This document shows positions 1 through 18,067 of a DNA stretch of 36,034 bases, piece by piece. This DNA is from an uncultured Lachnospiraceae bacterium (GTDB lineage: Bacteria; Bacillota; Clostridia; Lachnospirales; Lachnospiraceae), in contig CAOKQK010000031.1 of the NCBI GenBank assembly GCA_948470905.1, positions 1 through 36,034 of the forward strand. The letters run 5' to 3'. The notes below the pieces were generated by a model. The model saw nothing but the letters and a program-made list of their open reading frames with translations. It was not told the origin of the DNA and ran no database searches. A program made the translations under genes and the position numbers. Position 1 is the first letter of the stretch, and each line of letters opens with the position of its first letter.

Positions 1-334
<334 letters not shown>

Positions 335-345
<11 letters not shown>

Positions 346-2037: not shown

Positions 2038-2251
2038 CCCCATCCCCCTTTCCAAGCCGCACGGTCATGATGAATTCCTCCCCGGACAGGGATTCCGGCA
2101 GGGGGCGCAGGGAAAGTTCACTCCGGCTTCCGCCCTGCCAGCCTCCCCTGTCCAATATTACCGGCTGTCCCGGTAAATCCTGCCTGCCTTTCCTGACGCC
2201 CACCCGGCTGTCCTCCCGGGTGCCCATCTGGCTGCCATCCCCGCTTCTCAT
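2027..2251 (-). CDS. Small ICE protein of unknown function (74 aa)
   Basis: This short frame starts with an ATG at 2251 that overlaps the stop of the DUF3846 gene (ATGA). It ends inside the start of radC, so it fills the gap between two operon genes by coupled translation. I do not recognise the family. The C-terminal half (RPLPESLSGEEFIMTVRLG) reads like ordinary protein and contains no low-complexity sequence, whereas the first 25 residues are Ser/Gly/Arg-rich. The support is positional: exact overlap at both ends and no other frame that covers the gap. It could still be a chance open frame in GC-rich DNA. Confidence 0.5.
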   Translation of the reverse strand: MRSGDGSQMGTREDSRVGVRKGRQDLPGQPVILDRGGWQGGSRSELSLRPLPESLSGEEFIMTVRLGKGDGDGG

Positions 2252-2730: not shown

Positions 2731-2753
2731 ACATCCTCCTGTCTGCCTTCCGG

Positions 2754-3893: not shown

Positions 3894-4013
3894 TGATCCT
3901 GCCTCCTTCCCCCATATGGCGCATATCTGTGTGCTGGCAGGCCCTTCCCCTGCAGCGCCGCCCATATGGAAAAGGCCGCCCCAAAAGGCAGCCCCTGTCA
4001 ACTCAACATCCGT

Positions 4014-4505
4014 TTATTCTGTGTATTCCCCCAGGGAAAAGGCAAAGGTAAACTCCCCTGTATAGGTATCCGGCACGGTAAGCTCCGCAGACACCCTGCC
4101 CCCTGCTTCCGTGTATTCCCCCGCACTGATATGCAGTTTCCCGGCGCCCGCCTGCCTGCCGGGATGCACCCATTCCGTGACGTCTTGCGAGATGGCCGCC
4201 TGGCAGGCCTCCCCGGTGGTGCTGCCCGTCATCACAAAGGTTCCTGCGGTGGGCCGGACGGTCACGCTCTGCCCCGGGAGGATGCTCCCCTTTGCGGCCA
4301 CCGTATAGCTCCCCTCATATTTCCCGGAAACACTGTCATAACGCAGTTCCAGGGATGCGGGCACCTGCACGGAATAGGTGCTGCCCACGGCAGCCGATAC
4401 CCTGCAGTCCCCTGTGCCGTCCGCAGTATACTCCTTTGCGTTTACGGGGATACTGCTGGCCATTGCTGCCATCAGTAACATGGCGGTAAATATTTTCTTT
4501 TTCAT
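4014..4505 (-). CDS. Secreted beta-rich surface protein, paralogue of the next gene
   Basis: The 163-aa product has a clear signal peptide (MKKKIFTAMLLMAAMASSIPVNA) and a mature part that reads as a small beta-sandwich: YSVQVPASLELRYDS, YTVAAKGSILPGQSVTV, and a final strand YTGEFTFAFSLGEYTE. The neighbour at 4737-5294 shares the same order of motifs (EYTxxGTxxCxxS, TYxVxxPAxxxL, KGxLLxxQ, DTYxGxxxFxFxxEEY). The two are therefore a duplicated pair within one operon. No sortase motif is seen. They may be pilin-like subunits or adhesins; this is inference from signal peptide, repeats of the fold and context. The start at 4505 has GGAGG about 10 bases upstream; the longer upstream frame is not supported. 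Confidence 0.75.
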   Translation of the reverse strand: MKKKIFTAMLLMAAMASSIPVNAKEYTADGTGDCRVSAAVGSTYSVQVPASLELRYDSVSGKYEGSYTVAAKGSILPGQSVTVRPTAGTFVMTGSTTGEACQAAISQDVTEWVHPGRQAGAGKLHISAGEYTEAGGRVSAELTVPDTYTGEFTFAFSLGEYTE

Positions 4506-4736
4506 CTGGTAAAACCCTCCTTCCACTTCCTGCGGCACCCCGTCCGCCGGGGATGCCGCACAACATTGTTTCCTGCAGGTTACAGATACGGCGGATTCGA
4601 CCAGGGGAGCTGCCTCCCCTACCTGTGCGCCGGATGCTGCCAGCCTGCGGCACATTTCATTCAGATACCCGGGTAAAAAGCCGCCTGCCGTGCCCAAGGC
4701 CATCCCCGGCACAGCTTACGGGCAGATATGCCCTGT

Positions 4737-5294
4737 TTAAGGCAGGTTCTTCTTCTCATACTCCTCCACACCGAAAGTAAAGACCAGCGTACCGGCATAG
4801 GTGTCCGCATCATCCACTTCCCAGGTGGTCACGGTTCCGGCGGCATACACATACTCCGTGGGGGAGATCTCCACATACTCGCCCATGTCAAAGAGCGGCG
4901 TGGTCCCGCCGGGATACCACCTGGTCTTTGACATGTTCACCGTCACGGGGAGGCTTGCCCCGGTATTCTCCCCCGTCAGCTTCCCATTCAGGTAATCGCC
5001 GTTTGTTCCCCTGGATAACTCCACCGACAGATGCGTGGGCTCCACCTGCACCATCTGGTTCAGCAGCAGATCCCCCTTGACCCCCACCTGGAATGTCCCG
5101 GAGGCCGTGCCGTCCTCCGCCGTATACGTCAGCCCCACCGCTGCCGGGATGGATACCGTATAGGTGGACGTGACCTGGCAGGAAATCTTACATTCTGCCG
5201 TCCCCTCCGTGGTGTACTCCTGTGCCGCCGCGGTCATCCCGCCCTGCAGCAGCGCCGCCGCTGTTAAAAGTGCCGCCATAATCCTGTTCCTCAT
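4737..5294 (-). CDS. Secreted beta-rich surface protein (paralogue of 4014-4505)
   Basis: The 185-aa product starts at the ATG at 5294 (AAGGAGG 6 bases upstream). It has a signal peptide (MRNRIMAALLTAAALLQGGMTAAAQ, shown by its basic start, hydrophobic core and A-A-A-Q end). The mature part begins EYTTEGTAECKIS and ends YAGTLVFTFGVEEYEKKNLP, parallel to the neighbouring paralogue. It is longer by about 22 residues, mainly from an insert around WYPGGTTPLFDMGEYVEI. The protein is expected to be exported and beta-rich. It has no cell-wall anchor motif, so it may associate with the membrane proteins encoded beside it. The function is not known. Confidence 0.75.
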   Translation of the reverse strand: MRNRIMAALLTAAALLQGGMTAAAQEYTTEGTAECKISCQVTSTYTVSIPAAVGLTYTAEDGTASGTFQVGVKGDLLLNQMVQVEPTHLSVELSRGTNGDYLNGKLTGENTGASLPVTVNMSKTRWYPGGTTPLFDMGEYVEISPTEYVYAAGTVTTWEVDDADTYAGTLVFTFGVEEYEKKNLP

Positions 5295-5409
5295 GGAAAC
5301 CTCCTTTTCTTCCCTGCCTGCTGTTATTTTTATTTTCCCCCGCACCCGGCAGGATCATGTGACGGAAGGAACGCAGGAGCGGTGCCCCTGCGTGCAAAAA
5401 CCGGGCTTT

Positions 5410-5952
5410 TCAGTCCAGGATTGCCAAAGTTGTCTGGCAGCTGCCCTGGGTAAGGCCGATATACCCCCCGTCCCCGTCCGGGTAATAGGGGATCTGGAGG
5501 AAACTCAGGTCATGCTCCCCCGCCCCCAGTGTCTCCCCGGGCACCCAGTCCACATGCTGCCCGGAGGGGATCAGGCCCGTCTCAAAGACTAGGCACCCCT
5601 CACTGTCATAGACCTCATACCGCAGCAGGAAATCCAGGTTTTCCGCCCGGTTATCCAGCTGCACCACTGTTTCGGGGCCGATGGAGGCATCCTCGATCCC
5701 GGAGAAATAGACGTTCCTGCCCGCAAGGGGGTCTGCCTCCAGTTCCGCTGCCTGCCCATCCGTGGCCCTGGTATCCACCACCAAGCCCCCTGCGGCAGGG
5801 TTTTCGCTTCCATGCCCCACAGCAACAGGGGGTTCGCTTTTATGCTCCCTGTTGCTCATGCAAAAGGCAGTGGCGGCCGCCACAATCACCACTGCCGCCA
5901 ATACTGCCAGAATCATTATTATCAGGTTTTTCCTGCCCTTTCCTTTTTCCAT
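5410..5952 (-). CDS. Membrane-anchored ICE protein with extracellular beta domain
   Basis: The 180-aa protein has a short basic cytoplasmic start (MEKGKGRKN), a single membrane segment (about residues 10-31, LIIMILAVLAAVVIVAAATAF), a disordered stretch, and a C-terminal domain (about residues 75-180) ending LTQGSCQTTLAILD. That domain alternates short strands (VVQLDNRAENLDFLLRYEVYD, FETGLIPSGQHV, GEHDLSFLQI) and probably sits outside the membrane. The start is supported by AAAGGAG 5 bases upstream. It lies between the LRR protein and the paralogous secreted proteins in one operon. I do not recognise the family; a role as membrane base or chaperone of the surface proteins is a guess. Confidence 0.7.
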   Translation of the reverse strand: MEKGKGRKNLIIMILAVLAAVVIVAAATAFCMSNREHKSEPPVAVGHGSENPAAGGLVVDTRATDGQAAELEADPLAGRNVYFSGIEDASIGPETVVQLDNRAENLDFLLRYEVYDSEGCLVFETGLIPSGQHVDWVPGETLGAGEHDLSFLQIPYYPDGDGGYIGLTQGSCQTTLAILD

Positions 5953-6084
5953 TTTTCTCCTTTCTGCCGCCTAGTAAGGTTTCTTACCCCGCCCATGCCA
6001 GGTATTCCACCCCTGGCTGTTCCCTTCATCCTGCAGATATGCCTCCATGGCTTCTCCCGGGAATGTCAGACCTCTTTTCAGGGA

Positions 6085-8058
6085 TCACTTCTGCCCGCAG
6101 CTGATCCCCAGCCTCAGCGTCCCCTCCCAGTCCCCCGGGATCCTTTCACCTGACAGGAGGATCCTGCCCGTCCCGTTATAAAAACCATCCCCGTCCACTG
6201 CGGCATCACTGCTGTCAATATCCCATTCCGTCCCATCCGCCTGGACGGACAGGGGGAGTGTCCTGCCTGTTTCCGCATCCTGCAGGGAGAACCCTGCCCC
6301 TTCCACTGTTACGGACAGGCGGTAGGTATTGTCAGGGAACAGGTATCTCACCGTGACGGGGATTTCCCCCACGATCCGGTTATTCCCCCCATCCTCCGAC
6401 AGGCTGATACTGGCCGGGACCGATACGACAAAACCGGGCGTAATTTTATAATGGTACAGGTCGTACAGACGTGTAAAAGATTCCGTGGTGGCGGTCTTAT
6501 CGCCGCACCCCGCATCCACCAGCGTCTCCGCAGCCGCCAGTTCGTCCAGCAGTTCCTGCCACTTGGCAGGCGGGTACTTTCCCCCTTGTGCCAGCGTGCC
6601 GTTCCGGATATCATCCCCCACCATCTGCACAAGTTCCTCCAGGGCGCTCAGCCTTGCAACGAAGGTCACGTCCCTGCGGACAGCCGCCCAGTCATATTCG
6701 TACTGGTATACATTCCCGATCTCCACCGTGGTGGGCGTGATCTTCTCCACGGAAGCCATGAATGCCTTGAACGCTATCCTGCGGGTGTTGTCGACCAGGA
6801 TGATATAGTCCGGGATGGTGCCCTTGTCATAGGCATCCTTGGCAAATGCGTCCGCGCCGATCACCGTCACGCTGTCCGCTATCTCTATCCGGGATGCCTT
6901 GGTGTTGGCAAATACCCTGTCGTGGATCTCCGTGACGCCCTCCATGAAATGGATGGTATAGCCGTCCGATATGTTCGCCGGGCTCGCCATGGTACTGCCC
7001 ACCTGCGACACGCTGGCAGCCCCGGTCTTCCCGGGCGTGATATAGATATCCTCCAGTTTTTTCATGTCATAAAAGGGGATGTTGAGGCTGTTGTATTCCA
7101 GATCCCCAGGCAGGGTCAGCGACGTGGCCCCCTCGCAGTGGTAGAAGGAGTAGTTGGAAATGCTGTCCACCGTGTCCGGTATGACCACTGCTTTCAGGGA
7201 AGTGCAGTATTCAAAGGCATACTCCCCTATGGTCCCCACGCTGGAGGGGAGCGTATACTCCTGCAGGCTGGAGAACCTGGAGAACGCGTACTTACCGATA
7301 TTTGTGATCCCCTCCCCCACTGTCACGCTGATGATCCTGCCCCTGTACGCCCTGTAAGGCTGGTAGTCATAATACCCGATCCCCGCCATCTCCCCGGTGC
7401 CTGTCAGTTCCAGCCGGTATGTGTCATTCCCCAGGCCGTACAGGGCAGCGATCACGTTATCGTCAAAGACTGCGTAGGTATCAAAGCTGTTATTGTATTT
7501 CCCGCTGCTGTTGCCCATGTTCCACTGCATCAGCCTGTCATCCGGGTAGACGGTCAGGCCGTAGGGGCTGGCCAGGTCCTGCACTGCGTCCGCATCACCA
7601 TAAGTTCTCCCCTGTTCCATGTCCCCTACAGCCGCACTGGCATCACTCCCGGCATCCCCTACTGTCCCGTTTCCGTTTTCCCCGGTACTTTCACTTCCTG
7701 CATCGCCTCCTGATACCGTGCCGCTCCCCACAGGATATCCGTCAGCCGGGTCATTCCCGGATACAGTACCGTTTCCTGTGGGACACCCCGCAGCCGGGTC
7801 ATTCCCGGATACAGTACCGTTTCCTGTAGAACACCCCGCAGCCGGGTCATTTCCGGATACAGTGCCGTTTTCTGTAGAATATCCTGCATCCAGACTATTC
7901 CCGGATATAACACTGCTGCTTTCCACAGAATAACCTGCGCCAGGGTTATTCCCCGGCATGATGGGATTCCCCTGCGCCTGTACCGGGCAGAGGCCGGACA
8001 CCGCAAGGCTGGCTGCCAGCAGTACTAGGGCTGCGCCCTTTCTCACAAAACCTTTCAT
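6085..8058 (-). CDS. BspA-like leucine-rich-repeat surface protein with 16-residue N-terminal repeats
   Basis: The 657-aa protein has a signal peptide (residues 1 to about 29, ending PVQAQ). A repeat region (about residues 35-115) has 16-residue units carrying NGTVSGNDPAAGC. Next come LRR_5 (BspA/TpLRR) repeats at about residues 225-330, recognised by ITNIGKYAFSRFSSLQ, VGTIGEYAFEYCTSLK and VDSISNYSFYHCEG, with a further partial repeat near residue 405 (VTVIGADAFA). The last 110 residues (FVVSVPASISL to GDWEGTLRLGIS) resemble the beta module of the two small secreted proteins downstream. BspA-like proteins mediate adhesion to host proteins or other cells. No LPxTG motif is present. AAAGGAG lies about 10 bases before the ATG at 8058. 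It is the probable adhesin of the ICE surface-protein operon. Confidence 0.8.
   Translation of the reverse strand: MKGFVRKGAALVLLAASLAVSGLCPVQAQGNPIMPGNNPGAGYSVESSSVISGNSLDAGYSTENGTVSGNDPAAGCSTGNGTVSGNDPAAGCPTGNGTVSGNDPADGYPVGSGTVSGGDAGSESTGENGNGTVGDAGSDASAAVGDMEQGRTYGDADAVQDLASPYGLTVYPDDRLMQWNMGNSSGKYNNSFDTYAVFDDNVIAALYGLGNDTYRLELTGTGEMAGIGYYDYQPYRAYRGRIISVTVGEGITNIGKYAFSRFSSLQEYTLPSSVGTIGEYAFEYCTSLKAVVIPDTVDSISNYSFYHCEGATSLTLPGDLEYNSLNIPFYDMKKLEDIYITPGKTGAASVSQVGSTMASPANISDGYTIHFMEGVTEIHDRVFANTKASRIEIADSVTVIGADAFAKDAYDKGTIPDYIILVDNTRRIAFKAFMASVEKITPTTVEIGNVYQYEYDWAAVRRDVTFVARLSALEELVQMVGDDIRNGTLAQGGKYPPAKWQELLDELAAAETLVDAGCGDKTATTESFTRLYDLYHYKITPGFVVSVPASISLSEDGGNNRIVGEIPVTVRYLFPDNTYRLSVTVEGAGFSLQDAETGRTLPLSVQADGTEWDIDSSDAAVDGDGFYNGTGRILLSGERIPGDWEGTLRLGISCGQK
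7712..7954. repeat. 48-bp tandem repeats in the LRR protein gene (about 5 units)
   Basis: Four units of 48 bp (7712-7759, 7760-7807, 7808-7855, 7856-7903) and a diverged fifth can be aligned by eye. Each contains GATACAGTACCGTTTCCTGT or a close variant and CAGCCGGGTCATT. They encode 16-residue units of the NGTVSGNDPAAG type. The two central units differ at only a few positions, so copy number is likely to vary between strains. Confidence 0.85.
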
Positions 8059-8276
8059 TTCTGTCTGCTCCTTTCCAGATTTTTCATCTGCGCTGTCTGC
8101 GCCGTTCCTCTTCCGTTCCTGACCACCCCCTTTCCATCCATGCCGGGAAACATATGGCAGGCTGCCCAGGCCGCCATATTCCCCGGCCCTTCCCGCATCC
8201 GGCAGCCCTTTTCCAAAACATACCAGCGGAAAAAGGAATATCCATCCCTGGTTCCATCTTCCTGCCGTTCCCGCCC

Positions 8277-9413
8277 TTACCCTCCCCCAAAGCCATTTGC
8301 CATGTCATGACGCACAAGGCTCGCATAATACTGGCTGATGGTCACAGGCGCATTGAACAGGGCGGACAGGGTATAGGCACGGATATTCCCCACCAGGGTT
8401 GTGTTCTGGTCCAGGCAGTCCATCACATACTCGATATGGGTACTGTCCAGTTTCAGGAACCTGTTTTTCACAACCTCCGTGCCCATTTCCTCCTGGTTGA
8501 CACGGGTTGTCTCCCGGCTGCTGCTGCAGACCTCCGCCATGAGTTCCACAAAGCCGTCAAGGCGCTGCCTGTCATAGGGATAGCGTTCCAGCAGGATATC
8601 ATAGCTGATGTTTTCCCGGATCAGGGCACGATAGGCGCTGAACAGTTCCATCTTTCCCATCCTGTCCGCCTGCCCGGTCCCTCCTGCCCCTGTACAGGGA
8701 TTGATGGATGAATCAGTCTCACTCACCTCAGTATTGCTAAAGTCAGTATTATTTGTTTGTGATTTCCGCAATTCCTGTTTTGTGGTTTTCACATTTCCTG
8801 ATTTGTGATTTTCACATTTCTTGAGTTGTGATTCTGCGGTTTGCTGCGGCCTGCCATGTTCAACAGATAATTCCACCGGCTTCTGCTGCATTATCTGCCC
8901 TGGCATGGCTGCCTGTCTCGGCAGAACCGGAATTGTTGCCCCGATTCCAGATGCTTTCCCTGAGGCTGTATGCCCCGGCGGCACTGCACACTTTAACGGC
9001 ACTGCCTGTGCTGGCGGTTTCGGCGCATCCCCGGGCGGAGCCTGCGCCCCTGAGATGAAATTTTTCACATAGATCACATTTGGCTTCCCCAGCCCCCGGC
9101 GTTTCCGCTCGATCAGCCCCACCCCTTTTGCCGTGTCCAGCTCGCTTAACAGCTTGTTGGCTTTCTGTTCCGCACAGGCAAGAGTCCCCATCACGTCGGC
9201 AATGGTAAAAATGATATACACCCTCCCGTCCCCGTCCATCCACCCGTTTCTCACGGAGAGCGACATCCGGTCCAGCAGCAGCCCGTAGAGTACTTTCGCC
9301 TCCACGGATACATCCTTGAACCTCCTGTCCGTAAAGAGCGCCTTGGGGATGCGGTAGAAACTGTACTGTTCTGCTTCATTCCCATAATAATAATCCAGAT
9401 CAAGCGGCATCAT
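8277..9413 (-). CDS. repA: RepA_N-type replication initiator protein A
   Basis: The 378-aa protein begins MMPLDLDYYYGNEAEQYSF and carries the RepA_N domain (about residues 15-125): YRIPKALFTDRRFKDVS, EAKVLYGLLLDRMSLS, DGRVYIIFTIADVMG, GLIERKRRGLGKPNVIYVKNF. A variable middle (about 130-250) holds iteron-like DNA repeats. The C-terminal domain (about residues 255-375; ELFSAYRALIRENISYDIL, KNRFLKLDSTHIEYVMDCL) is of the type found at the end of these initiators (DUF6017-like). RepA_N proteins start theta replication of plasmids and of the circular form of some ICEs. The start at 9413 follows AAGGAGG at 6 bases. It lies downstream of parA-parB but is separated from them by a strong terminator, so it is probably transcribed on its own. 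Confidence 0.85.
   Translation of the reverse strand: MMPLDLDYYYGNEAEQYSFYRIPKALFTDRRFKDVSVEAKVLYGLLLDRMSLSVRNGWMDGDGRVYIIFTIADVMGTLACAEQKANKLLSELDTAKGVGLIERKRRGLGKPNVIYVKNFISGAQAPPGDAPKPPAQAVPLKCAVPPGHTASGKASGIGATIPVLPRQAAMPGQIMQQKPVELSVEHGRPQQTAESQLKKCENHKSGNVKTTKQELRKSQTNNTDFSNTEVSETDSSINPCTGAGGTGQADRMGKMELFSAYRALIRENISYDILLERYPYDRQRLDGFVELMAEVCSSSRETTRVNQEEMGTEVVKNRFLKLDSTHIEYVMDCLDQNTTLVGNIRAYTLSALFNAPVTISQYYASLVRHDMANGFGGG
8758..8849. repeat. Four 23-bp iteron-like repeats inside repA (possible replication origin)
   Basis: Units at 8758-8780, 8781-8803, 8804-8826 and a partial one at 8827-8849 share the register TGTGRTTTYC(A/G)CA(A/T)TTCYTG. The stretch is markedly more AT-rich than the GC-rich gene around it and is flanked by another AT-rich run (8730-8760). 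Origins of RepA_N plasmids such as pSK41 are known to lie inside the rep coding region as such repeats. Position and spacing are seen; origin function is inferred. Confidence 0.65.
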
Positions 9414-9476
9414 GGCTGCCTCCTTCCTTTGCTTTAATGAACCGGCAGACGCATCCGCCAGGGCTGGTATCTGCCA

Positions 9477-9538
9477 GGACGCAAAAAAGCCGCCCGGCAA
9501 CCTGTTCAACTAAGTCACCGGGCGGCTTTTTTGCGTCC
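9477..9538 (-). terminator. Strong hairpin terminator between parB and repA
   Basis: A perfect 21-bp inverted repeat (9477-9497 with 9518-9538, loop 20 nt) contains GCCGCCCGG / CCGGGCGGC flanked by six A/T pairs. It works as an intrinsic terminator on either strand because each arm carries a run of A or T. It lies 17 bases after the parB stop and 64 bases before the repA start. A second small hairpin (GGCAGA 9444-9449 with TCTGCC 9470-9475) sits in the repA leader. Confidence 0.85.
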
Positions 9539-9554
9539 CTGCCCAATATAAAAT

Positions 9555-10484
9555 TTATGCGTTTACGTCATTCCTGTCCTTTTTCCACACCTCCAGGAGG
9601 GAAAAGATGACCTCCTCCATCTGCTCCCGGGTATAGGACTGCGGGAAATACTGTTTCAGCCTCCCGCTTTTCAGCGTTACTTTTGCCGGTGGGGGATTTT
9701 CCTCTGTCAAAATCGCATCCATCACATCCCTGCCCAGCTTCCCATCCTGGCTGTACTTTTTCAGCCGCTTTGCCTGCTCCAGGGAGGGCACGGAGGATAA
9801 ATTTTTCATCAGTTCCAGGAGCTGCCCCTGTTCCTCCTTTGTCAGATAGGACAGTTCCACAGCCGGATTGAACGGCAGTTTCCTGTCATCCGCCATCTGG
9901 AGAAGTTCCGGCAGGAGTTCTGTCAGGCGGATGTATCTCTGTATCTGCTTAAAATTTTCCCCGGACTCATCCGCTATGATTTCAACTGAAAACTTCTTCC
10001 TTAAATTCTGGACAACTTGTCCAGAATTATTTCCTGCCGGCCTGCCCGCTTTCCTTTTGATCGCATCCAGCTTCATCTTATAGGCCCATGCCTTTTCACT
10101 GGGGAGCAGGTTCTCACGCTGAAGGTTGCTGTCCACCATGAACAGGGTGGCCTCATCATCATCCAGGTCACGGATGACCACCGGCATGGTGTCCTGCCCC
10201 GCCAGTTCCAGCGCATGTCTGCGGCGGTGCCCTGCGATCAGTTCATACCCTCCCTCCGCACGGGGGCGGGCAATACCGGGTACAAGCACCCCATGGAGTT
10301 TCACGCTCTCCACCATCTCCCCCATGGCTTCATCGTCCAGCACCTTGAATGGATGCCCCTTAAAAGGGAACAGCTCCCCCAGGGGGACCTCCTGCACCTT
10401 TTCCCCCGCAGCCTCCGCAGGGCTGCCCACGGAAAACAGGTCATCATAGGAAGTCATCTGGATATTCCTTGCGCTGCTTTTCAT
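9555..10484 (-). CDS. parB: ParB family partition protein
   Basis: The 309-aa product has the ParB/Srx N-terminal domain: VPLGELFPFKGHPFKVLDDE (about residues 33-52), ELIAGHRRRHALELAG (about residues 80-95, the arginine patch now known to bind CTP in ParB) and NLQRENLLPSEKAWAY (box II, about 119-134). The helix-turn-helix region covers KQIQRYIRLTELLPELL. ParB binds parS-like sites and works with ParA to segregate the element. The C-terminal region (from about residue 240) is the extension seen in ICE/Tn1549-type ParB proteins. Its ATG overlaps the parA stop by 4 bases, so the pair is co-translated, and the operon ends at the terminator at 9477-9538. Confidence 0.9.
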   Translation of the reverse strand: MKSSARNIQMTSYDDLFSVGSPAEAAGEKVQEVPLGELFPFKGHPFKVLDDEAMGEMVESVKLHGVLVPGIARPRAEGGYELIAGHRRRHALELAGQDTMPVVIRDLDDDEATLFMVDSNLQRENLLPSEKAWAYKMKLDAIKRKAGRPAGNNSGQVVQNLRKKFSVEIIADESGENFKQIQRYIRLTELLPELLQMADDRKLPFNPAVELSYLTKEEQGQLLELMKNLSSVPSLEQAKRLKKYSQDGKLGRDVMDAILTEENPPPAKVTLKSGRLKQYFPQSYTREQMEEVIFSLLEVWKKDRNDVNA

Positions 10485-11263
10485 ATCCCCGCCACCTCCC
10501 CCACCAGGGCCTGATAGGCTGCCGCCACTTTCCCGGCCGGGTCATGGAGGTAAATGCTCTTCCCCTCCGCACTGGACTCTGACGCCCTTACCGACATGGG
10601 GATGATGCTGTCAAATATCCGCAGCTTCCCATCATAAGTGCTATGTAAAAGTTCCACGATATCCCTCGCATAGTTTGTCCGCATGTCTGCCATGGTGATA
10701 AGTATCCCGGCAATGGCAAGCCCGGGGTTGATCTGGCGGCGTACCTTTGCAACCGTCCTTAATAACTGCTCCAGCCCCTTGATGGAAAGGTACTGGGCCT
10801 GCACGGGTATGACCACCTGGTCCGCTGCCGCCAGGGCATTGATGGTCAGCATCCCCAGGGATGGCATGGTATCCAGCACGATTGCGTCATAATCATCCCG
10901 TACCTCTTTCAGGAACTCCCGCAGGATCGTCTCCCGGCTCATGGTATTCACAAGCGTGACTTCCATGCCGGAAAGCTCAATATTGGCCGGAAGCAGGTCT
11001 ACGCCCTCATCATGGTGGAGAATCCCGAATCCCTCCGGAAGCGGGCTGTCATTAATAATGGAAGAAAGCACTGTTGCCAGCGTGACCTCCAGCCTGTCCG
11101 GCTGCTGGAACCCCAGGCTTGCCGTCATGGAGCCCTGGGCATCCATATCTATCAGGAGGACTTTTTTCCCCGCACAGGCAAGCCCCACGCCTAAGTTCAC
11201 GGAACTCATGGTCTTTGCGCAGCCCCCTTTCTGGTTACATACCGCATAAACTGTCGCTGCCAT
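10481..11263 (-). CDS. parA: ParA family partition ATPase
   Basis: The 260-aa protein begins MAATVYAVCNQKGGCAKT, with the deviant Walker A KGGCAKT at residues 12-18. It continues with LLIDMDAQGSMTASLG (Walker A'/switch region), IVLDTMPSLGMLTINAL (Walker B region) and VIPVQAQYLSIKGLEQL, all typical of the ParA/Soj ATPases used for partition of plasmids and ICE circular forms. Cys in place of the more common Val or Ser in K-G-G-x-A/G-K-T is tolerated in the family. The ATG at 11263 is chosen because GGGGAGGGG lies 5 bases upstream; a GTG two codons earlier overlaps the stop of the preceding ORF. It is co-transcribed with parB. Confidence 0.9.
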   Translation of the reverse strand: MAATVYAVCNQKGGCAKTMSSVNLGVGLACAGKKVLLIDMDAQGSMTASLGFQQPDRLEVTLATVLSSIINDSPLPEGFGILHHDEGVDLLPANIELSGMEVTLVNTMSRETILREFLKEVRDDYDAIVLDTMPSLGMLTINALAAADQVVIPVQAQYLSIKGLEQLLRTVAKVRRQINPGLAIAGILITMADMRTNYARDIVELLHSTYDGKLRIFDSIIPMSVRASESSAEGKSIYLHDPAGKVAAAYQALVGEVAGI

Positions 11264-11265
11264 GT

Positions 11266-11490
11266 TCACCCCTCCCCTCTCACACAGGCTGGCAGATTAC
11301 TGATATTCAGATATCCATATCCTACCAGGTAATAGTCCAGGCAGTTATGCTCCACATAAGCCCACACCCAGTAAGGCACATCCCTGTGCCCGGTTCCTCC
11401 AACGCCGCCTGCCTGTTCCAGGAGCCTCCTTAAATCTCCCATACCCTGCCTCCGGCTTTGTAAATCACTTCCGTTAAATCTCTCTGTCAT
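11266..11490 (-). CDS. Small ORF heading the parA-parB operon, function unknown
   Basis: The frame gives a 74-aa product from the ATG at 11490 (MTERFNGSDLQSRRQGMGDL), or 104 aa if the ATG at 11580 is used. AAAGGAGG lies about 14 bases before the 11490 start, which is long but usable; the upstream ATG has no ribosome site and lies inside a palindrome. The C-terminal half (RDVPYWVWAYVEHNCLDYYLVGYGYLNI) is aromatic and looks like a folded protein. It ends 2 bases before parA. I do not recognise it. Its place at the head of the partition operon would fit a regulator or a structural partner, but nothing shows this. Confidence 0.55.
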   Translation of the reverse strand: MTERFNGSDLQSRRQGMGDLRRLLEQAGGVGGTGHRDVPYWVWAYVEHNCLDYYLVGYGYLNISNLPACVRGEG

Positions 11491-11529
11491 CTGTACTGAT
11501 TTATCCTCCTTTGCCTGAATTTGACGGGT

Positions 11530-11628
11530 AAGCAAACGCAGCCACGCTTTGCGTGTCTGCTTATTGCATAAAATAAGCATAACCGGTGGAAGCCGCTTGT
11601 TTCCTAGCTTTTTTCGGTTATGCTTATT
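11530..11628. repeat. Cluster of palindromes at the right end of the ICE
   Basis: Three overlapping inverted repeats are seen. The first is AAGCA-A-ACGCA (11530-11540) against TGCGT-GT-CTGCTT (11550-11562). The second is GCTTATT (11559-11565) against AATAAGC (11572-11578). The third is a perfect 14-bp pair AATAAGCATAACCG (11572-11585) against CGGTTATGCTTATT (11615-11628) with a 29-nt spacer. The middle arm can pair with either neighbour. It lies between the broken protease gene and the parA operon. It may be a recombinase or partition-protein binding region, or a terminator or operator. Confidence 0.6.
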
Positions 11629-11633
11629 ATAAC

Positions 11634-12174
11634 TCAGGCGTTATCCAGAAACCTCTCCAAAAGAGAACTTCCGTCATGGGCACCATAAGTATTTCCAAAA
11701 CTCAGATTGATCACAAGCGGCATTTGCAGTTCTATCGCCTTATTGACCGCATAAGTCACCGCCCGCATGATCTCTGTGGTCCTTGGGAAGGAAAAGGCAT
11801 CTGGAAGCCCCAGCTTGACGATCAACAGTGCTGCTTCCGGCGCTGCACCCTGATAGGCGGCGCTGCTGCCTGCCGCAATGCCCGCTACCGCCGTCCCATG
11901 TCCGCTGGTATCCACGCTGGGCAGGAGCTGGAACTGCTGTGCGCCGGATGCCTCCAGTGCGCGGTTGATCTGCTCCGCAGCAAACTCTACCCCCAGCACA
12001 AATCCTGCCGGCGGCTGTCGTCGCTCCTGTTCTGTCCCCTCTTCCGCCCCACCTTCCACTCCTTCTGTATCGGAACCGTCAGGCTGCCCAGAAGGGCGCA
12101 GGGTTTGATCCCATAGATAAAGAATCCTGGTCCTGCCGTCTCTGTTGCGAAACTCCGGAAGTCGATAGTCAATT
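11634..12174 (-). pseudogene. S8 (subtilisin-like) protease, central fragment cut at both ends
   Basis: The frame reads I-D-Y-R-L-P-E-F-R-N-R-D-G, then TRILYLWDQTL, and contains the catalytic-His motif DTSGHGTAVAGIAAG and INLSFGNTYGAHDGSSLLER, all typical of clostridial S8 proteases. It lacks the N-terminus and catalytic Asp (found at 17669-18067) and the catalytic Ser domain, which would lie beyond the ICE. It ends F-L-D-N-A-stop at the ICE junction. A low-complexity acidic insert (about 12000-12090) separates WDQ from the His motif. The frame stays open to 12266 only because it runs into the recombinase gene. It cannot make an active enzyme in this state. Confidence 0.9.
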
Positions 12175-14061
12175 CCCTCCTGTGTTGCATAGGTGCTGAA
12201 AGAGCCTGCCTCTGTCCCATTCTGCCCAATGTATCTTAATACTGGAAGTTTTTCTTTCATCGACACATACTATAATTTTGTCAATCAATCCCTCCACATT
12301 CTGCCTTGTCAGCTCTGCCAATCCCAAACACCCCATCATATCCTTTGTCTGGAGTTCCCCGTCTACAACCTGGTCCCAGTATGCTATTTTTTCCTCCGCT
12401 TCTGCAAGATTGACCTTTATAATTAATTCTTTTCTTTCTGCCTCCGCAAGCCTTACTTGCAGAATACTTTCTCTGCTGGAGTTTTTTTCTTTACCTGCCA
12501 AACTCCTTTTGTATGCAAAGTCTTCTTCATCTGCAAAATTCCCTCTGCCTGTATAACTCCTTTTGTCCGCAAAATCTTTTTCATCTGCAAAATTCCCTCT
12601 GCCTGTATAACTCTTTTTGCCCGCAAAGTCTTCTTCATCTGGAAGCTCTCCCTTCACCGCCTGTCCGGTATTGGGATTTTTCCCTACCGCGGAGTAAACC
12701 TCATAAATCTCCAGCTTGTGTTTTTTCAGCAACGCCTGCTCTCTCTGAAGATGACGCTTTCTCTTTTTCCATTCCTGCCGTTTTCTTTCTGCAATCTCCC
12801 GGCATTTGACCTTTAAATTTTCTTCACCTTCCATCTGTATTACGTAATCCTGCATTTCGGAGAGCACATATTGCCCCAGATTCACGGCATCCACCTTCTC
12901 CACGCATCCCTCCAAAGAATCAGTATACCTGTATGGGCAGACAAAACAGGGTGCCGCCATTTTGCGGAAGCGCAGATTCCTGCCACAACACCCGCAGACC
13001 AGCTTCCCTATCAGGACATGCCGCGGCATCTGCCCGGCCCCCTTCCGGATTGTGTGCCCATCCTGCAGCATTTGAAATGTCTGTCGGTCTATAACAGGCG
13101 TGTGATGATCCGCATATACCTTCCACTCACTCTGCGGCTTTAAGTGGTTCATCCCGCCCACCGTCTCCTTTTCGGTCTTCCCATAGACAAGGTCCCCCAC
13201 ATACACCTGATTGTGAAGGATCTGACATACTGTGGATGTCTGCCAGATAAACATGCCCTTTTTAGGACGACGTCCTGTTTCGCCCTTTTCTACCCGAAAC
13301 TGCAGGGGTGTCTTAATCCCCTCCCTGTTAAAGAGCCTTGCAATCTCTCCCGAACTGCAGCCCTGGAGGGCAAGGTTAAATATACGTCTGACAACTGCCG
13401 CTTCATCCTCCGCAATCAGCAGCTGATGCCTGTCTTCTCCCGATTTCATGTATCCGAAAGGGCTGTTTGAGCTGATGTACTGCCCCTGTTCCTTTCTCAC
13501 GGACAGCGCCGACTTTACCTTTACCGACAAATCCTTACTGTACAGGTCGTACAGGAGATTTTTAAAAGAAATATCCAGCTCCCCCGCCATATACCTTTCC
13601 GCCGCGCTGTCGTAGCCGTCATTCACGGAAATGAAGCGCACACCCATAAAGGGAAAAATCTGCTCCAGGTAAGCCCCCAGCTCAATATAATCTCTGGAAA
13701 ACCGTGAAAAATCCTTTACCACAATGCAGTCAACCTCCATGCTGCGTACCAGCTCCAGTAACCTGCCGACTCCGGGACGGTTAAAATTCGTCCCGGAGTA
13801 ACCGTCATCCTCAAACTCCAACAACTCGTAACCTTCAAAGCGAGCTGCCACAAACTCTCTTAACAGCTCTCTCTGCATCTGGATACTGTTGCTCTCTCCA
13901 TAGACAATCTCCCCTTCGGCAGACTCCTGAGATACCGTTTTCGGAGTCTCTGATTCCCCATGAACAGAATCGGCATTTGCTGACATCTTCCTGACAGTAT
14001 GGTCCCCTTTGGACAATCGCATATAGATAGCAATCCTAAGTCTGCTGCTCACTGCCGCCAT
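12169..14061 (-). CDS. Large serine recombinase 3 of the trio
   Basis: The 630-aa protein has the catalytic-Ser motif IAIYMRLSKGD (Ser at residue 17), EDDGYSGTNFNRPGV (about residues 83-97) and VVKDFSRFSRDYIELG (about residues 112-127). A recombinase domain follows (SPFGYMKSGEDRH onwards) and a zinc ribbon CGCCGRNL with a distal Cys pair, then a long coiled-coil-rich C-terminus. It differs from the other two by an insert of about 40 residues between the serine motif and NSIQMQREL. It also has 18-residue repeats (FADEKDFADKRSYTGRGN) near residues 475-525. AAGGAGG lies 5 bases before the ATG. Its stop codon TGA lies in the protease sequence beyond the crossover. All catalytic motifs look intact. 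Confidence 0.9.
   Translation of the reverse strand: MAAVSSRLRIAIYMRLSKGDHTVRKMSANADSVHGESETPKTVSQESAEGEIVYGESNSIQMQRELLREFVAARFEGYELLEFEDDGYSGTNFNRPGVGRLLELVRSMEVDCIVVKDFSRFSRDYIELGAYLEQIFPFMGVRFISVNDGYDSAAERYMAGELDISFKNLLYDLYSKDLSVKVKSALSVRKEQGQYISSNSPFGYMKSGEDRHQLLIAEDEAAVVRRIFNLALQGCSSGEIARLFNREGIKTPLQFRVEKGETGRRPKKGMFIWQTSTVCQILHNQVYVGDLVYGKTEKETVGGMNHLKPQSEWKVYADHHTPVIDRQTFQMLQDGHTIRKGAGQMPRHVLIGKLVCGCCGRNLRFRKMAAPCFVCPYRYTDSLEGCVEKVDAVNLGQYVLSEMQDYVIQMEGEENLKVKCREIAERKRQEWKKRKRHLQREQALLKKHKLEIYEVYSAVGKNPNTGQAVKGELPDEEDFAGKKSYTGRGNFADEKDFADKRSYTGRGNFADEEDFAYKRSLAGKEKNSSRESILQVRLAEAERKELIIKVNLAEAEEKIAYWDQVVDGELQTKDMMGCLGLAELTRQNVEGLIDKIIVCVDERKTSSIKIHWAEWDRGRLFQHLCNTGGN
12501..12643. repeat. 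54-bp tandem repeat (2.7 units) inside recombinase 3
   Basis: Units at 12501-12554, 12555-12608 and a partial 12609-12643 share TGCAAAATTCCCTCTGCCTG and the flanking AACTCCTTTTG. They encode 18-residue Asp/Lys/Phe-rich units in the coiled-coil region of recombinase 3. They differ at only a few positions, which implies recent duplication. Confidence 0.85.
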
Positions 14062-14082
14062 CCGCTCCTCCTTGATTATTTA

Positions 14083-15693
14083 TTAATTCCTCGGACAATG
14101 AGCCACAAGTCCGGGAAAGTCTGACTGCAGGTAAATTGTTGATTTTTCAGGTGCAAATCGAAAAGTAATCTTCACCCTCTTGTCCGGATACAGTTCTATC
14201 CTTTGGATCAGGGCAGCAATCAATTCACCATCTGCCGCTGCCTTCCCTGAAAACACTGCCAATTCGCGCAGCATTACGTTCCACCGCCGGGCTTCTGCGC
14301 ACACCTCCTCTAGCTTGCCTCTTTTTTCCTCCAGGCTGGCCCTCGCCTTCCCTGCCTCCTCCTCATTCTGCGCCTTCCATTCCAGAAACGCTTCCCTCTT
14401 TAGAATGCCTTCCCGATATTTCCGATACTGCTCACTTCCCGCCCAATCCGCGTTTTTCAGCCTTCTTTGCAGCGCATCCGCTTCTTTCTGTATCTGGCAT
14501 TTTCTCTCATTGGCATATTTCATATTCTCCTGTACCAGTTCTTCTGGCAAAATATCACGAAATGCCGCCTCCCGCCTTAATATTACGTTTACTATTTCAG
14601 TCAATAAATTTCCTGAAACAGTACTAACGTCGCAGCCATGCTTATCTTTTTTGGGAGAATTTCTGCAAAAATAACGGCTGTGTACAGCTTCCTGTCCCGC
14701 AGCAGCCCTTTTCGCAGTGCCCCGCCTGCCCAACTTCCTTCCACAGCAGCCGCAGAACAGCATGCCCTCGAAAATATCCTTTTTTTCTGTCTTAACACAA
14801 AAAGCAGGATGTAACTCCTGCTCTTTTGTCTTCTCCGCTCTTTCTGCAAACTGCCCGGCAATCCGGCAGAATTGTTCCCTGCTGATGATCGCCTCATGGG
14901 TGTTTTCTGCCCTGCTGCCCTCCAATACCGTACAGCCTGTATAAACCAGATTAGTCAATACTGCCTTTATGCTGCTCCTGCCCCACCGGTACAGCATTTC
15001 CCCCGACTGCCGGCACAGATGGTTGTACCTTCGGTACTCCGCAGGACGATGGATCCCCCGTTCATAAAGGCTTTCCGCAATCTCCCGAAAACTCCTGCCC
15101 TCGTCATATTGCGCAAAAATCCACCTTACCACCTCCGCCGTCCCTGCCTCCGCAAACAGGCATTTCTTCCCACAGATCCACTCCGCCCCATAGCCATAGG
15201 GCGGAATGCCCCCCACATAGCTGCCCGACTCCCGCTTTGCCCTCTTGGCGCTCTTTACCTTGAGGGAAATATCTCTGGCATACATTTCATTTGCCAGATT
15301 CTTCAGGTTGATGCCAATGTCATCACTTTCTGCAAAAAGGCTGTCAAAGCCGTCCGTGACAGAGATAAAGCGAACGCCTAAAAAGGGAAATATTTTCTGG
15401 ATATAATTTCCTGCCTCAATATAATTGCGCCCAAACCTGGAAAAGTCCTTCACAACAACACAGTCCACCCTGCGCTGCCTTACATCCCCCATCAGACGTT
15501 CAAAACCCTCTCTGGCGAAATTCGTCCCCGTCTTTCCCAGATCGCTGTAGCAGTCATACAAGACCATGTCCCCCTGTCTTTTCATGTATTCCTTCGCTAT
15601 CTCTATCTGGGTCTGGATCGATTCGTTTTTCCTGTCACTGCCCTCCACCGAAAGGCGTGCATAAATTCCCACAGAATAAATCCTTCCAGCCAT
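14083..15693 (-). CDS. Large serine recombinase 2 of the trio
   Basis: The 536-aa protein has VGIYARLSVEGSD (catalytic Ser at residue 15), SDLGKTGTNFAREGFERL (about residues 50-67) and VVKDFSRFGRNYIEAGNYIQ (about residues 81-100). Next come the recombinase domain (GGIPPYGYGAEW), a zinc ribbon (MLFCGCCGRKLGRRG with CRN...HGC downstream) and a C-terminal coiled coil. The ATG overlaps the stop of recombinase 1 (TGATG), so translation is coupled. A GTG one codon earlier is also possible. The stop is 21 bases before recombinase 3. Length and domain order are normal for the large serine recombinase family, and no catalytic residue appears lost. Confidence 0.9.
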   Translation of the reverse strand: MAGRIYSVGIYARLSVEGSDRKNESIQTQIEIAKEYMKRQGDMVLYDCYSDLGKTGTNFAREGFERLMGDVRQRRVDCVVVKDFSRFGRNYIEAGNYIQKIFPFLGVRFISVTDGFDSLFAESDDIGINLKNLANEMYARDISLKVKSAKRAKRESGSYVGGIPPYGYGAEWICGKKCLFAEAGTAEVVRWIFAQYDEGRSFREIAESLYERGIHRPAEYRRYNHLCRQSGEMLYRWGRSSIKAVLTNLVYTGCTVLEGSRAENTHEAIISREQFCRIAGQFAERAEKTKEQELHPAFCVKTEKKDIFEGMLFCGCCGRKLGRRGTAKRAAAGQEAVHSRYFCRNSPKKDKHGCDVSTVSGNLLTEIVNVILRREAAFRDILPEELVQENMKYANERKCQIQKEADALQRRLKNADWAGSEQYRKYREGILKREAFLEWKAQNEEEAGKARASLEEKRGKLEEVCAEARRWNVMLRELAVFSGKAAADGELIAALIQRIELYPDKRVKITFRFAPEKSTIYLQSDFPGLVAHCPRN

Positions 15694-17282
15694 CACCCAA
15701 TTCCCTTCATATTAAATTCCACTCGGATTCTCTTATCCTCATATACCTCAATGCGACGCACAAACGTCATCAATACATCCCGATTCAGTTCTGTCAGCTC
15801 CTGCACCTCCTTAAAGTGCTCCAGTTCCCTGCCGGCCGCCGCACCTGCCTCCATGCAGCGGCGTATCCATTCCTCCTGCCCTGCAATGGCTTTCCCCGCC
15901 CGGGCATATTTATCCTCATAAATTTGTCGGAAAACACAAAAGTCCTCCCGGCTGATGGTGCCGTCTTTCAAGTCCTCCCACAGACTGTCCTGCAGAGACA
16001 GGCACTGCTCCCGCACCTTGACAAGCCTTGCCGCCTCCCCCTCCAGCGTCCTTATATCTTCAAATTTAACCTCCAGCCCATTCATATATGCCGACAGCCT
16101 CTCCCAATCTGTCAACACCTCTGCCTGTATCCTCAGGCAAGCCAGCACAGTTTCCCGCAGCACCTCCTCTGTGATATCATGCCGGCTGCAGCCCCTTCCC
16201 TTATTTCGCGCCGAGCATATAAAAGAGAGCCTTTCTTTTCCTTTATAACGATCCAGCCTCCTTGCCATAGGCCTCCCGCAGTCCCCACAGAACAAAAGCC
16301 CTGAAAACATATGGGCACATTCTTCCCCTCCGCTGCGGCGGCTTCCCGTCTTTAAGAGCCTCTGCACATTGTCAAATTCCTCCCTGCCGACAACTGCTTC
16401 GTGGGCATGCTCCACCCGCGCCCACTCCTCCTTAGGTTTACGGCAGTACTTGTTTACCTTTACACTTACCTTTTCGGTCTTTCCCTGCTCCAGAGTTCCT
16501 ATATAGACCGGATTAGTCAAGATTCTCCTGACTGCCACTGCAGACCATTCTGCCTGAATGCCTGCGGCAAACCCGCTGCTGTAATGACCGCCTTGCGCCC
16601 GCTTATACTCCATTGGGCTCAATACCCCCAGGATATTCAGCTTTTCGGCAATCGCCGTGGCGCTCATGCCCCCAAGCCTCCAGCCAAAGATACTCCGCAC
16701 CACCCCTGCCGCGTATCCGTCCGGAACAAGATGATTCCTGTCCTCAGGATCCTTCTGATAACCATAAACGGCAAAAGCTCCGATAAATTTCCCATTCTCC
16801 CTTTTGATCTTCTGGTGGCTCTTTACCTTGTCAGAGATATCCCTGCAGTAGGCATCATTGACAAAGTTCTTCACCGGAAGCACCAGCGCCCTCTCATTAT
16901 AATCTGCCGTCAGGGAATCATAGCGGTCAGTAACCGCAATAAAGCGCACATTTAAAGCCGGGAAGATCTTCTGTATCAATCGCCCGGCTTCAATATACTC
17001 TCTCCCAAATCTGGACAGGTCCTTTACAATAATGCAGTCAACAAGCCCGGCATAGACATCCTCCATCATACGTCGGAACCCCGGACGCTCAAAGCTGGTC
17101 CCCGAGTAACCGTCATCCACGTAAATATCGTAAATTTCCATATCTTCCTGTCTGCGGACGAAGGCGCGGCACAGTTCCCGCTGTGAGCTGATGCTGTCGC
17201 TCTCAAGCCTCCCTCCTGTGGAAGTGTCATCCCGGGACAGCCGCAGATATATGCCTGCATGGTATAACTCCTTTGGTTTCAT
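15693..17282 (-). CDS. Large serine recombinase 1 of the trio
   Basis: The 529-aa product starts MKPKELYHAGIYLRLSRDD (catalytic Ser at residue 16), with DDGYSGTSFERPGF (about residues 56-69) and IVKDLSRFGREYIEAGRLIQ (about 83-102). The recombinase domain follows (AFAVYGYQKDPEDRNHLV), then a zinc ribbon (FSGLLFCGDCGRPMARR with FIC...GCS), then a helical C-terminus. The start has GGGAGGA 5 bases upstream; the ORF stays open 8 codons further but without support. It is first in the three-gene recombinase operon, 42 bases after the 79-aa ORF. The sequence is clearly different from recombinases 2 and 3 outside the motifs, so the three are not a recent tandem duplication. Confidence 0.9.
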   Translation of the reverse strand: MKPKELYHAGIYLRLSRDDTSTGGRLESDSISSQRELCRAFVRRQEDMEIYDIYVDDGYSGTSFERPGFRRMMEDVYAGLVDCIIVKDLSRFGREYIEAGRLIQKIFPALNVRFIAVTDRYDSLTADYNERALVLPVKNFVNDAYCRDISDKVKSHQKIKRENGKFIGAFAVYGYQKDPEDRNHLVPDGYAAGVVRSIFGWRLGGMSATAIAEKLNILGVLSPMEYKRAQGGHYSSGFAAGIQAEWSAVAVRRILTNPVYIGTLEQGKTEKVSVKVNKYCRKPKEEWARVEHAHEAVVGREEFDNVQRLLKTGSRRSGGEECAHMFSGLLFCGDCGRPMARRLDRYKGKERLSFICSARNKGRGCSRHDITEEVLRETVLACLRIQAEVLTDWERLSAYMNGLEVKFEDIRTLEGEAARLVKVREQCLSLQDSLWEDLKDGTISREDFCVFRQIYEDKYARAGKAIAGQEEWIRRCMEAGAAAGRELEHFKEVQELTELNRDVLMTFVRRIEVYEDKRIRVEFNMKGIG

Positions 17283-17324
17283 AGGTCCTCCCCCATTGCT
17301 CTCCATTACAGATCCGCGCGCATC

Positions 17325-17564
17325 CTAATATTTTATCTTGGCTATTTTCGCCACATACTCCTTCATCCTGTCGCTCATGCTCACTTCCGTATCAGCATAG
17401 TCCAGCTGAATGACATAATCCCCGTACCTTACCAGGAAAGGGTACTGTACCTGCTCCAGATATTCCCGGATCCTCTCCTCCACCGGCCTGGACCTGTCTA
17501 TACGAATATCCCTGATATCCACAAGCGCATCCCTGTCAGCCTGCATAATGTCTGCATCGCCCAT
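17325..17564 (-). CDS. Small acidic protein of the trio element (DUF6870-like), possible accessory factor
   Basis: The 79-aa product contains VDIRDIRIDRSRPVEERI (about residues 15-32), a QVQYPFLVRYGDYVIQLDYADT strand pair read in two parts, and SDRMKEYVAKIAKIKY at the C-terminus. The pattern V-D-I-R-D-x-x-I-D, then N/Y-P-F/Y, then G-D-x-V-I, is one I associate with DUF6870 proteins, which have no known function. That name is from memory and not checked. A weak GAAGG ribosome site lies about 12 bases before the ATG. It is the only non-recombinase gene of the element and is first in the operon. Small proteins beside large serine recombinases are sometimes recombination directionality factors, so this is a candidate by position only. 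Confidence 0.6.
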   Translation of the reverse strand: MGDADIMQADRDALVDIRDIRIDRSRPVEERIREYLEQVQYPFLVRYGDYVIQLDYADTEVSMSDRMKEYVAKIAKIKY

Positions 17565-17580
17565 AATATGTAATCCTTCC

Positions 17581-17606
17581 GCAGTTTAACGCCTTCGATA
17601 AACTGC
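17581..17606 (-). repeat. Inverted repeat at the start of the trio operon leader
   Basis: GCAGTTTA (17581-17588) and TAAACTGC (17599-17606) form a perfect 8-bp stem with a 10-nt loop, 17 bases upstream of the 79-aa ORF. A second short palindrome CTATG/CATAG lies at 17646-17660. Both are between the operon and the element end, where recombinase or regulator binding would be expected. Confidence 0.5.
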
Positions 17607-17668
17607 AGGTCGCTTTTCTATACCTTATGCCGCCTGCGGAATGTCCTATGATAACCATAGCGCCGCAT

Positions 17669-18067
17669 CTACCTGACACACTCCCCGCTGTCTAAAACGG
17701 CGATCAATGTCCCCCTTCCGGTCAGATTCGGCTCCCTGAACGCCACCTGCGGGAGGCAGGAGCCTTCCGCAGGCATCTGCGCCTCATAAAAATACCGCTT
17801 GGGCATCTCTACATATTCAATCTGCTCCAGTTCTACAATATTTTCCACCAATTGCTCCGGCACTGTCAATATGGCATATCCTGCTATGAGATATTCAATC
17901 TTCACCCCCAACAACTCCAGCGCATCCAGACTGCCGTGATACTTTACGATCAGCTCCCATGTACGTGTTTCTTCGTCAAATCCCACATTCAGATCCTCTG
18001 TACGTTTCCTGACCTCTTCGGAGGTCTGAAGGGCAAGCTGCAGTAAATTTTCCAGTTTTTGGTTCAT
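17669..18067 (-). pseudogene. S8 (subtilisin-like) protease, N-terminal fragment
   Basis: The 132-residue frame starts at the ATG at 18067 (GGGGGAAAGG just upstream) with MNQKLENLLQLALQTSEEV. It has a propeptide-like part (WELIVKYHGSLDAL, YAILTVPEQLVENIVELEQI) and reaches the first catalytic motif, NLTGRGTLIAVLDSG, where D is the catalytic Asp of clan SB proteases. It then runs into the trio element and ends G-E-C-V-R-stop. The missing middle is at 11634-12174. Clostridial genomes carry several S8 proteases of this type, some related to the spore-germination Csp proteases; which subgroup this belongs to cannot be told here. It is inactive as found. Confidence 0.9.

Follow-up and report, generated by a model that had tools for sequence, protein, structure and literature searches.

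Known elements and the locus under study

RIT elements comprise three tyrosine recombinase genes and little else, and the skin elements found in sigK are reportedly prophage-like, with a single serine recombinase. Here we consider a compact element of three large serine recombinase genes (R1, R2 and R3) that interrupts a csp protease gene in a 36,034-nucleotide stretch of DNA, hereafter the window, from an uncultured Lachnospiraceae bacterium (contig CAOKQK010000031.1 of assembly GCA_948470905.1). Among described systems, serine-integrase triplets are reported from streptococcal integrative and conjugative elements (ICEs) and dICEs, with mutT, traG and hsdM as targets and repeats of 2 to 8 bp (PMC4701971). 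In Bacillus cereus ATCC10987, gerE is interrupted by the gin element, which is described as 28.6 kb long, with girC lying away from girAB, a 9-bp shared consensus and demonstrated excision (PMC5595907). The yin element in yabG of Clostridium botulinum is presented as prophage-like, with a single serine recombinase (PMC10747680), and a C. difficile island carries three serine recombinases that are spread out rather than forming a trio, no csp gene figuring in its description there (PMC6814731).

The window element is like the RIT elements in having three recombinase genes and little else, and unlike them in that its enzymes carry serine Resolvase domains and its target is fixed. With skin and yin it shares a serine recombinase gene placed right after the 5' part of the split gene; those elements are prophage-like with one such recombinase, whereas this one has three. 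The streptococcal triplets, as presented in their source (PMC4701971), match it in having three same-orientation Resolvase and Recombinase proteins that cluster by triplet position, an insertion within a gene and short direct repeats, whereas the window element lies in the catalytic-Asp codons of a subtilase, measures 5.5 kb without conjugation genes and has relatives with as few as one recombinase. Like gin in its published description (PMC5595907), it is non-phage, has three serine recombinases and splits a gene whose frame exact excision would restore; it differs in that its trio is adjacent, its core is 2 bp and its excision is a prediction. The best NCBIfam matches of R1 to R3 are XisF of the fdxN element and the Ccr proteins (CcrA/CcrB/CcrC) of SCC, all far below the curated cut-offs (for XisF NF041201, 82.6, 95.9 and 101.8 bits against 375).

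A sequence-only reading of the window had judged that a serine equivalent of the RIT elements, aimed at an active-site codon run, would be notable. Its novelty is smaller than that suggests, as both serine-integrase triplets and a three-recombinase intervening element in a sporulation gene are already known from the sources above. What appears to be new, as far as our literature search shows, is the Asp-Gly subtilase target and the scale of its use, the multi-site csp hub, the one-recombinase forms and the signs of selection that point to reversibility; among the titles and abstract openings listed by the search, which had subscription papers and preprints largely outside its scope, none dealt with an element interrupting csp, and DUF6870 gave no hit. 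Taking these comparisons together with the results below, we consider it probable that the window element is a compact site-specific integrative element of a Lachnospiraceae family that is precisely excised, csp still being made.

Architecture, ends and core of the element

The insertion lies inside a gene and is bounded by a 2-bp GG direct repeat (Table 1). Read on the minus strand, the order is csp N-terminal part, GG, DUF6870 gene, R3, R2, R1, GG, csp middle part (I-D-Y-R-L-P...) and a second element. The three recombinase genes are adjacent, similarly oriented and each intact; all three products combine Resolvase and Recombinase domains and carry a Y-x-R-L-S motif, and two have a zinc ribbon. 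The junctions enclose no gene beyond these and DUF6870, and no conjugation module, so that the inventory proposed by the sequence-only reading (three intact large serine recombinases and a 79-aa open reading frame (ORF), without further cargo, at 12175-17684) is borne out by ORFs and domains. The final codons and stop of R1 (AAT TGA) come from the target gene. In the C-terminal part of R1 there are also in-frame tandem repeats of 18 residues, DExDFAxKxSYTGRGNFA (12478-12639). DUF6870 lies upstream of R3 in 24 of 30 R3 loci and is a candidate accessory or directionality factor.

Table 1. Features of the interrupted csp locus, in window positions
Feature	Position	Strand	Basis or remark
Whole element, one GG core copy counted in	12175..17684	minus	5,510 bp; junction arithmetic; each end has an arm conserved in the family
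R1, large serine recombinase, 630 aa	12169..14061	minus	ORF list, domain search, motif
R2, large serine recombinase, 537 aa	14083..15696	minus	ORF list, domain search, motif
R3, large serine recombinase, 537 aa	15693..17306	minus	ORF list, domain search, motif
DUF6870 gene, 79 aa	17325..17564	minus	Pfam match
Left arm of element, GGAGTGTGTCAGG...	17665..17684	minus	Relatives' version: GGAGnGTGTTATTATA
Right arm, core GG at 12175-12176	12175..12200	minus	Relatives' version: TACTTGACA.GAGAGG
csp 5' part, CspB prodomain to V-L-D-S-G	17685..18067	minus	Pfam CspB_prodomain, NCBIfam CspBA; core GG 17685-17686
csp middle part, I-D-Y ... F-L-D-N	11641..12174	minus	Pfam Peptidase_S8; holds His motif S-G-H-G-T
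Second element in csp, site F-L-D / N	1..11640	minus	Runs off contig

By its sequence, the split gene is assigned to the CspB-type S8 proteases of the germination type. When it is rejoined after the GG core it reads GAC AGC GGA ATT GAC TAT and the frame is restored. The N-part in the window aligns to positions 4-96 of the NCBIfam CspBA profile, and the C-part taken from the G013 orthologue to 97-517 (both below the curated cut-off); this coverage is contiguous, and hence nothing was lost at the cut. The proposed split between V-L-D-S-G and I-D-Y, with a GG join that restores the frame, thus holds by both junction arithmetic and profile coverage. The uninterrupted alleles expected in relatives were likewise found: 29 of 31 alleles uncut at the Asp codon were recovered by pattern, all colinear at the junction, and in the two that the pattern missed (G102 and G107) the N- and C-terminal matches abut with no gap. 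Across the family, the right attachment site (attR) varies with the host gene in the base following GG (A, C, G or T), while the bases ahead of it hardly vary; the crossover is therefore assigned to the first two bases of the Gly codon. Two relatives, L221 and L223, are identical up to the right junction and support the element boundary.

Recurrence of the site in the genus and the family

The genus was represented by 138 genomes, one per species, and a csp N-terminal part was detected in 121 of them (E 1e-20 or better). In 14 of these 121, csp is split at sites of the family type, nine of them at the window's Asp codon (D-S-G): G000 (the window genome), G014, G021, G028, G068, G100, G150, G160 and G161. 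Four csp sites besides the Asp codon are in use, namely F-L-D / N (G000, G133, G159 and G160), M-E-W-G / I (G028, G133, G122 and G069), F-L-Y / G (G014 and G099) and I-G / W-G (G100). At each of the first four sites (Asp, FLDN, MEWG and FLYG) the cut base is identical in every genome with a junction read. In 12 of the 14 split genomes a csp piece has recombinase genes next to it on one contig; the G021 contig includes just the left junction, and no recombinases belonging to the element itself were seen in G099. G092, at one stage taken for an M-E-W-G insertion, was dropped, its main csp being intact, and is not among the 14. The Asp-site element also occurs in a csp paralogue of G161 and in one of an extra genome, G158.

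To this we add a family scan, in which an alignment of seven Asp-site R3 proteins was compared with genome contigs and the best 80 of 135 loci were analysed; it overlaps the genus survey in at least four genomes (L214, L222, L230 and L266). Hosts are mostly Lachnospiraceae or its genera, the remainder including Bacillota and Clostridia. In 34 of these 80 loci the insertion interrupts a subtilase at the Asp-Gly codon used in the window. In 26, a Csp-type C-terminal part starts with its first residue directly after the recombinases; in five more (L213, L214, L226, L231 and L239) the N-terminal part reaches the junction, with no C-terminal part after it; and in three more (L227, L252 and L254) a different subtilase, which we take to be AprX-like, is cut at the same motif (both sides of the junction were read for L252, the right side only for L227 and L254). 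Nine loci use the M-E-W-G site instead (L242, L248-L251, L259-L261 and L273), and the rest fall in other clades, at contig ends or are unresolved. The same junction is present in the named strains D16-36 (L216) and 1XD42-76 (L252). Recurrence at one target, which the sequence-only reading had expected, is thus found on both scales.

Several further insertions were noted alongside. In the type strain Faecalimonas umbilicata DSM 103426, csp is split at M-E-W-G by 16.7 kb on one contig (L313:1649; L314:6230), an insert that includes recombinase genes of the window element's family. Kineothrix alysoides KNHs209 likewise has csp split at M-E-W-G, with the parts on two contigs, and in strain D16-50 the split is at the Asp site. 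Other trios lie in an Amidase_3 gene and, in another gene, near the N-terminal end of a Peptidase_M23 domain (L154, L164 and L159, the amidase cases being two and near-identical), as read from the right junction only. In G014 the Asp-site trio is broken: a different trio interrupts its R2, and its R3 is in two parts on two contigs (L080:4585-17970 and L031:15473-15733); hence recombinase genes seem to be targets too.

Mobility, element sizes and the recombinase trees

Loci L221 and L223 are 99.84% identical across 10,558 bp, and the match halts about 25 bp or less past the right junction, whereas their csp alleles are divergent (dN, the nonsynonymous divergence, is 0.51 for the C-terminal parts). 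With one genome per species, this near-identity means that the element has passed from species to species and entered differing alleles at one and the same codon, although the match may reflect cross-contamination of two metagenome bins. On this comparison, the element family is judged to be mobile.

The smallest relatives are 2.0-kb Roseburia forms in which R3 is accompanied by an ORF of about 93 aa with little conservation (dN/dS, the ratio of nonsynonymous to synonymous divergence, 0.58); in two Roseburia genomes R3 is the only recombinase at the Asp site. Forms with DUF6870, R3 and R2 occur in the G161 paralogue and at L235, and the largest are a 16-kb form with a chemosensory gene cluster (G028) and an apparently ICE-like one (G160). 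The Asp-site cargo of G028 (L032:5451-16045) encodes Hpt, HD-GYP-like response regulators, a histidine kinase, CheR, CheB, CheA, CheW and a methyl-accepting chemotaxis protein; G068 has most of this cluster, and by eye the gene after the trio in L271 resembles an Hpt gene.

The R3 tree has 53 rows, of which 41 carry a target label, and the label changes 7 times along it, the smallest number possible (against a mean of 13.7 after shuffling, with none of 200 shuffles as low); near-copies help this clustering (two amidase rows are almost identical), and L039 and L243 are counted once. We take this to indicate that target follows the R3 tree. Monophyly of the Asp-site enzymes was entertained and abandoned: a 31-row tree gave one clade (SH-aLRT 97), and a larger tree broke it, with 6 changes. 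A FastTree tree of the three genes (91 rows, without the streptococcal triplet proteins) groups them by position, with 5 changes of position label against a minimum of 2 (43.7 on average after shuffling, none of 200 shuffles being as low).

Maintenance of the split protease gene

All 29 fragments of 14 split csp alleles are stop-free, each fragment being a blast segment, within which the frame is given by construction. Among pairs with dS (synonymous divergence) under 2 and more than 120 codons, median dN/dS is 0.137 between intact alleles (239 pairs), 0.149 between intact and split alleles (182) and 0.156 between split alleles (37). The Asp-site C-terminal parts are of 438-499 codons in 27 of 32 cases; of the others, those of L230, G028 and G014 stop at a known second insertion, that of G100 meets a further insertion near the 3' end, and that of L290 ends early.

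Two pairs of genomes each appear to share their insertion by descent. G028 and G068 carry the same cargo, with 83.5% DNA identity over 6.3 kb, and eight element genes have dS of 0.86-1.44 against 0.77-1.34 for five other host genes (sense genes only). As element and host divergences match, the insertion probably predates the species split. Over that time the two csp halves show dN/dS of 0.052 and 0.037 at dS of about 1 (0.068 and 0.037 when blast-trimmed), and an intact csp paralogue in the same genomes 0.083. In the Roseburia loci L241 and L269, a 4.1-kb match spans the element and a csp paralogue; here the halves have dN/dS of 0.010 and 0.066 at dS 0.40-0.50, and R3 0.196 at dS 0.39. Were there no constraint, 0.6 substitutions per site should leave each lineage with about 21 stops, and none of 500 simulations was stop-free; the Nei-Gojobori method gives dS near 1 as an approximation.

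These figures indicate that the split gene is not decaying and that strong purifying selection acts on its halves in the interrupted state. They are most simply read as a sign of continued protease production, for which excision would have to be exact, and the selection evidence favours precise excision over simple gene killing. Of the two options left by the sequence-only reading, a transposon or a reversible switch, mobility gains support from L221 and L223, and reversibility is favoured by the selection on the halves. Unrelated targets lacking a conserved core, which that reading named as grounds for refuting its site-specific model, are not what the Asp-site lineages show, but the wider trio family does use other targets.

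Proposed mechanism and alternatives

The ends and core of the element, the recurrence of its site, the movement of a relative and the intactness of the enzymes can be read off the sequences themselves. Building on these, we propose a family of elements with one to three large serine recombinases and site-specific integration, in which the Asp-site R3 lineages would recognise DNA coding for D-[S/T]-G-hydrophobic around the catalytic Asp of subtilases. Crossover would take place in the 2-bp GG core of the Gly codon, and excision by recombination of the left and right attachment sites (attL x attR) would restore the frame exactly. R3 would be the enzyme that sets the site, and precise excision would be frequent enough for production of the csp protease. 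Most likely it would occur in the mother cell during sporulation, so that, as for skin and gin, no descendant would inherit the loss; because the mother cell dies, excision there would cost the element nothing, and the same reasoning applies to skin, gin and yin (PMC5595907, PMC10747680).

The csp operon of C. difficile is reported to require the mother-cell sigma factor sigma E (PMC3789822). In our genomes, SpoIVA is present in all 14 with a split csp and in 116 of 138 across the genus. Element leaders were scanned with a sigma-E promoter consensus: two spoIVA upstream controls scored well (1 of 300 shuffles each), and because none of the 20 other spoIVA regions passed p 0.02 the scan is given no weight. 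In it, two orthologous Roseburia leaders reached 15/16 and 13/16 (0 of 300 shuffles each), a match that partly lies in the conserved attachment arm. The leader of the 2-kb Roseburia element (L269:9937-9996) reads GTCATATA-14 bp-CATACAAT, which is sigma-E-promoter-like by this consensus and overlaps the conserved attachment arm.

Several observations weigh against this proposal. No excision product, circle or same-strain empty allele was seen in the assemblies examined. In the window genome itself csp may be dead, because a different element cuts it a second time, at 11640, and the assembly lacks its tail: no csp tail after residue 175 was found there (E 1e-10 or better; genome 89.9% complete). 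In genomes other than these pairs, recent insertion could account for the open frames, and descent in the Roseburia pair is argued from the 4.1-kb match across element and csp. In the sigma-E scan, 4 of 10 element leaders reached p <= 0.05, and none of the 20 other controls passed p 0.02. The Asp-site enzymes do not form one clade, with 2 changes in the 53-row R3 tree (FLDN also has 2, one on a very long branch) and 3 in a tree without nine unlabelled rows, the long branches of Asp_G150 and FLDN_G160, and inR2_G014, in which one deacetylase element counted twice; the earlier count of 6 arose partly because L227, L252 and L254 had been classed as "other" before they were recognised as subtilases cut at the same codon. 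The R3 of L039 (= L243, in genome G100), about 56-60% identical to that of the window, cuts a polysaccharide-deacetylase-like gene, and those of L232 and L271 (56-57% identical) have no csp half in reach; hence R3 proteins this similar need not share one target. Further, the targets of the wider family (traG, Amidase_3, an M23 peptidase, the deacetylase-like gene and other subtilases) are not all sporulation genes, and the family is therefore not confined to csp.

A broader version of the proposal, to which we give somewhat less than even credence, is that csp serves as a developmental DNA-rearrangement hub. At least five codon runs (D-S-G, F-L-D-N, M-E-W-G, F-L-Y-G and I-G-W-G) would then be used by site-faithful recombinase lineages, with excision in the mother cell and protease only during sporulation; the recombinases would have come to read codons of active-site and core motifs for being the most constant DNA addresses, and R3 would be sufficient. 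Either way, the family offers a natural series, from one to three recombinases and from 2 kb to ICE-like, that reads one DNA address, the catalytic-Asp codons, in several protease subfamilies, and lets one ask which recombinase does the work and how serine integrases gain new sites. If excision is developmental, a germination protease of common gut Lachnospiraceae would be controlled by mobile DNA. DNA engineering may also profit from new large serine integrases whose 2-bp core is defined and whose protein-coded target is tolerant.

The foremost alternative is a plain site-specific mobile element that kills csp, its insertions being recent, or gained and lost through horizontal transfer, and intact csp persisting in other cells of the population. 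The clear horizontal movement of L221/L223 fits it, as do sister species that differ in state (G069 and G100, at dS 0.5, have different insertions) and the absence of any excision product from the assemblies. We nevertheless regard it as rather unlikely, since G028/G068 and L241/L269 appear to share an insertion at dS of 0.4-1.2, with dN/dS of 0.01-0.07 in the halves and with element and csp equally diverged in both pairs (in G028/G068, other host genes too). We see very little chance that the 5.5-kb trio is instead the integration module of the neighbouring ICE-like element with ParA/ParB/RepA_N, split off by rearrangement. In G160 a ParA/ParB left end (C43) and an Asp-type trio right end (C45) apparently belong to one element, on unjoined contigs; yet in the window both trio junctions join csp exactly, with family-typical arms, and the ICE occupies a separate site, F-L-D / N, which has its own trio in G133 and G159. 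A draft-assembly artefact is rejected as next to impossible, for although the genome is in 157 contigs and the window contig ends within a recombinase gene, numerous assemblies made independently, some of them of named strains, have this junction.

The second element in the window

The ICE-like element that makes the second cut encodes ParA, ParB, RepA_N-DUF6017, a BspA-type leucine-rich-repeat protein, RadC, traG, DUF3846 and DUF3801, with ParA, ParB and RepA_N-DUF6017 at its end. Its insertion base (F-L-D / N) is the same in G133, G159 and G160. Its traG/VirD4 gene (CD1115 family) is itself cut at V-V-T-D-P (window 1-868), and just past this cut a further serine recombinase gene, at 2-280, runs off the contig; together these apparently constitute a nested insertion.

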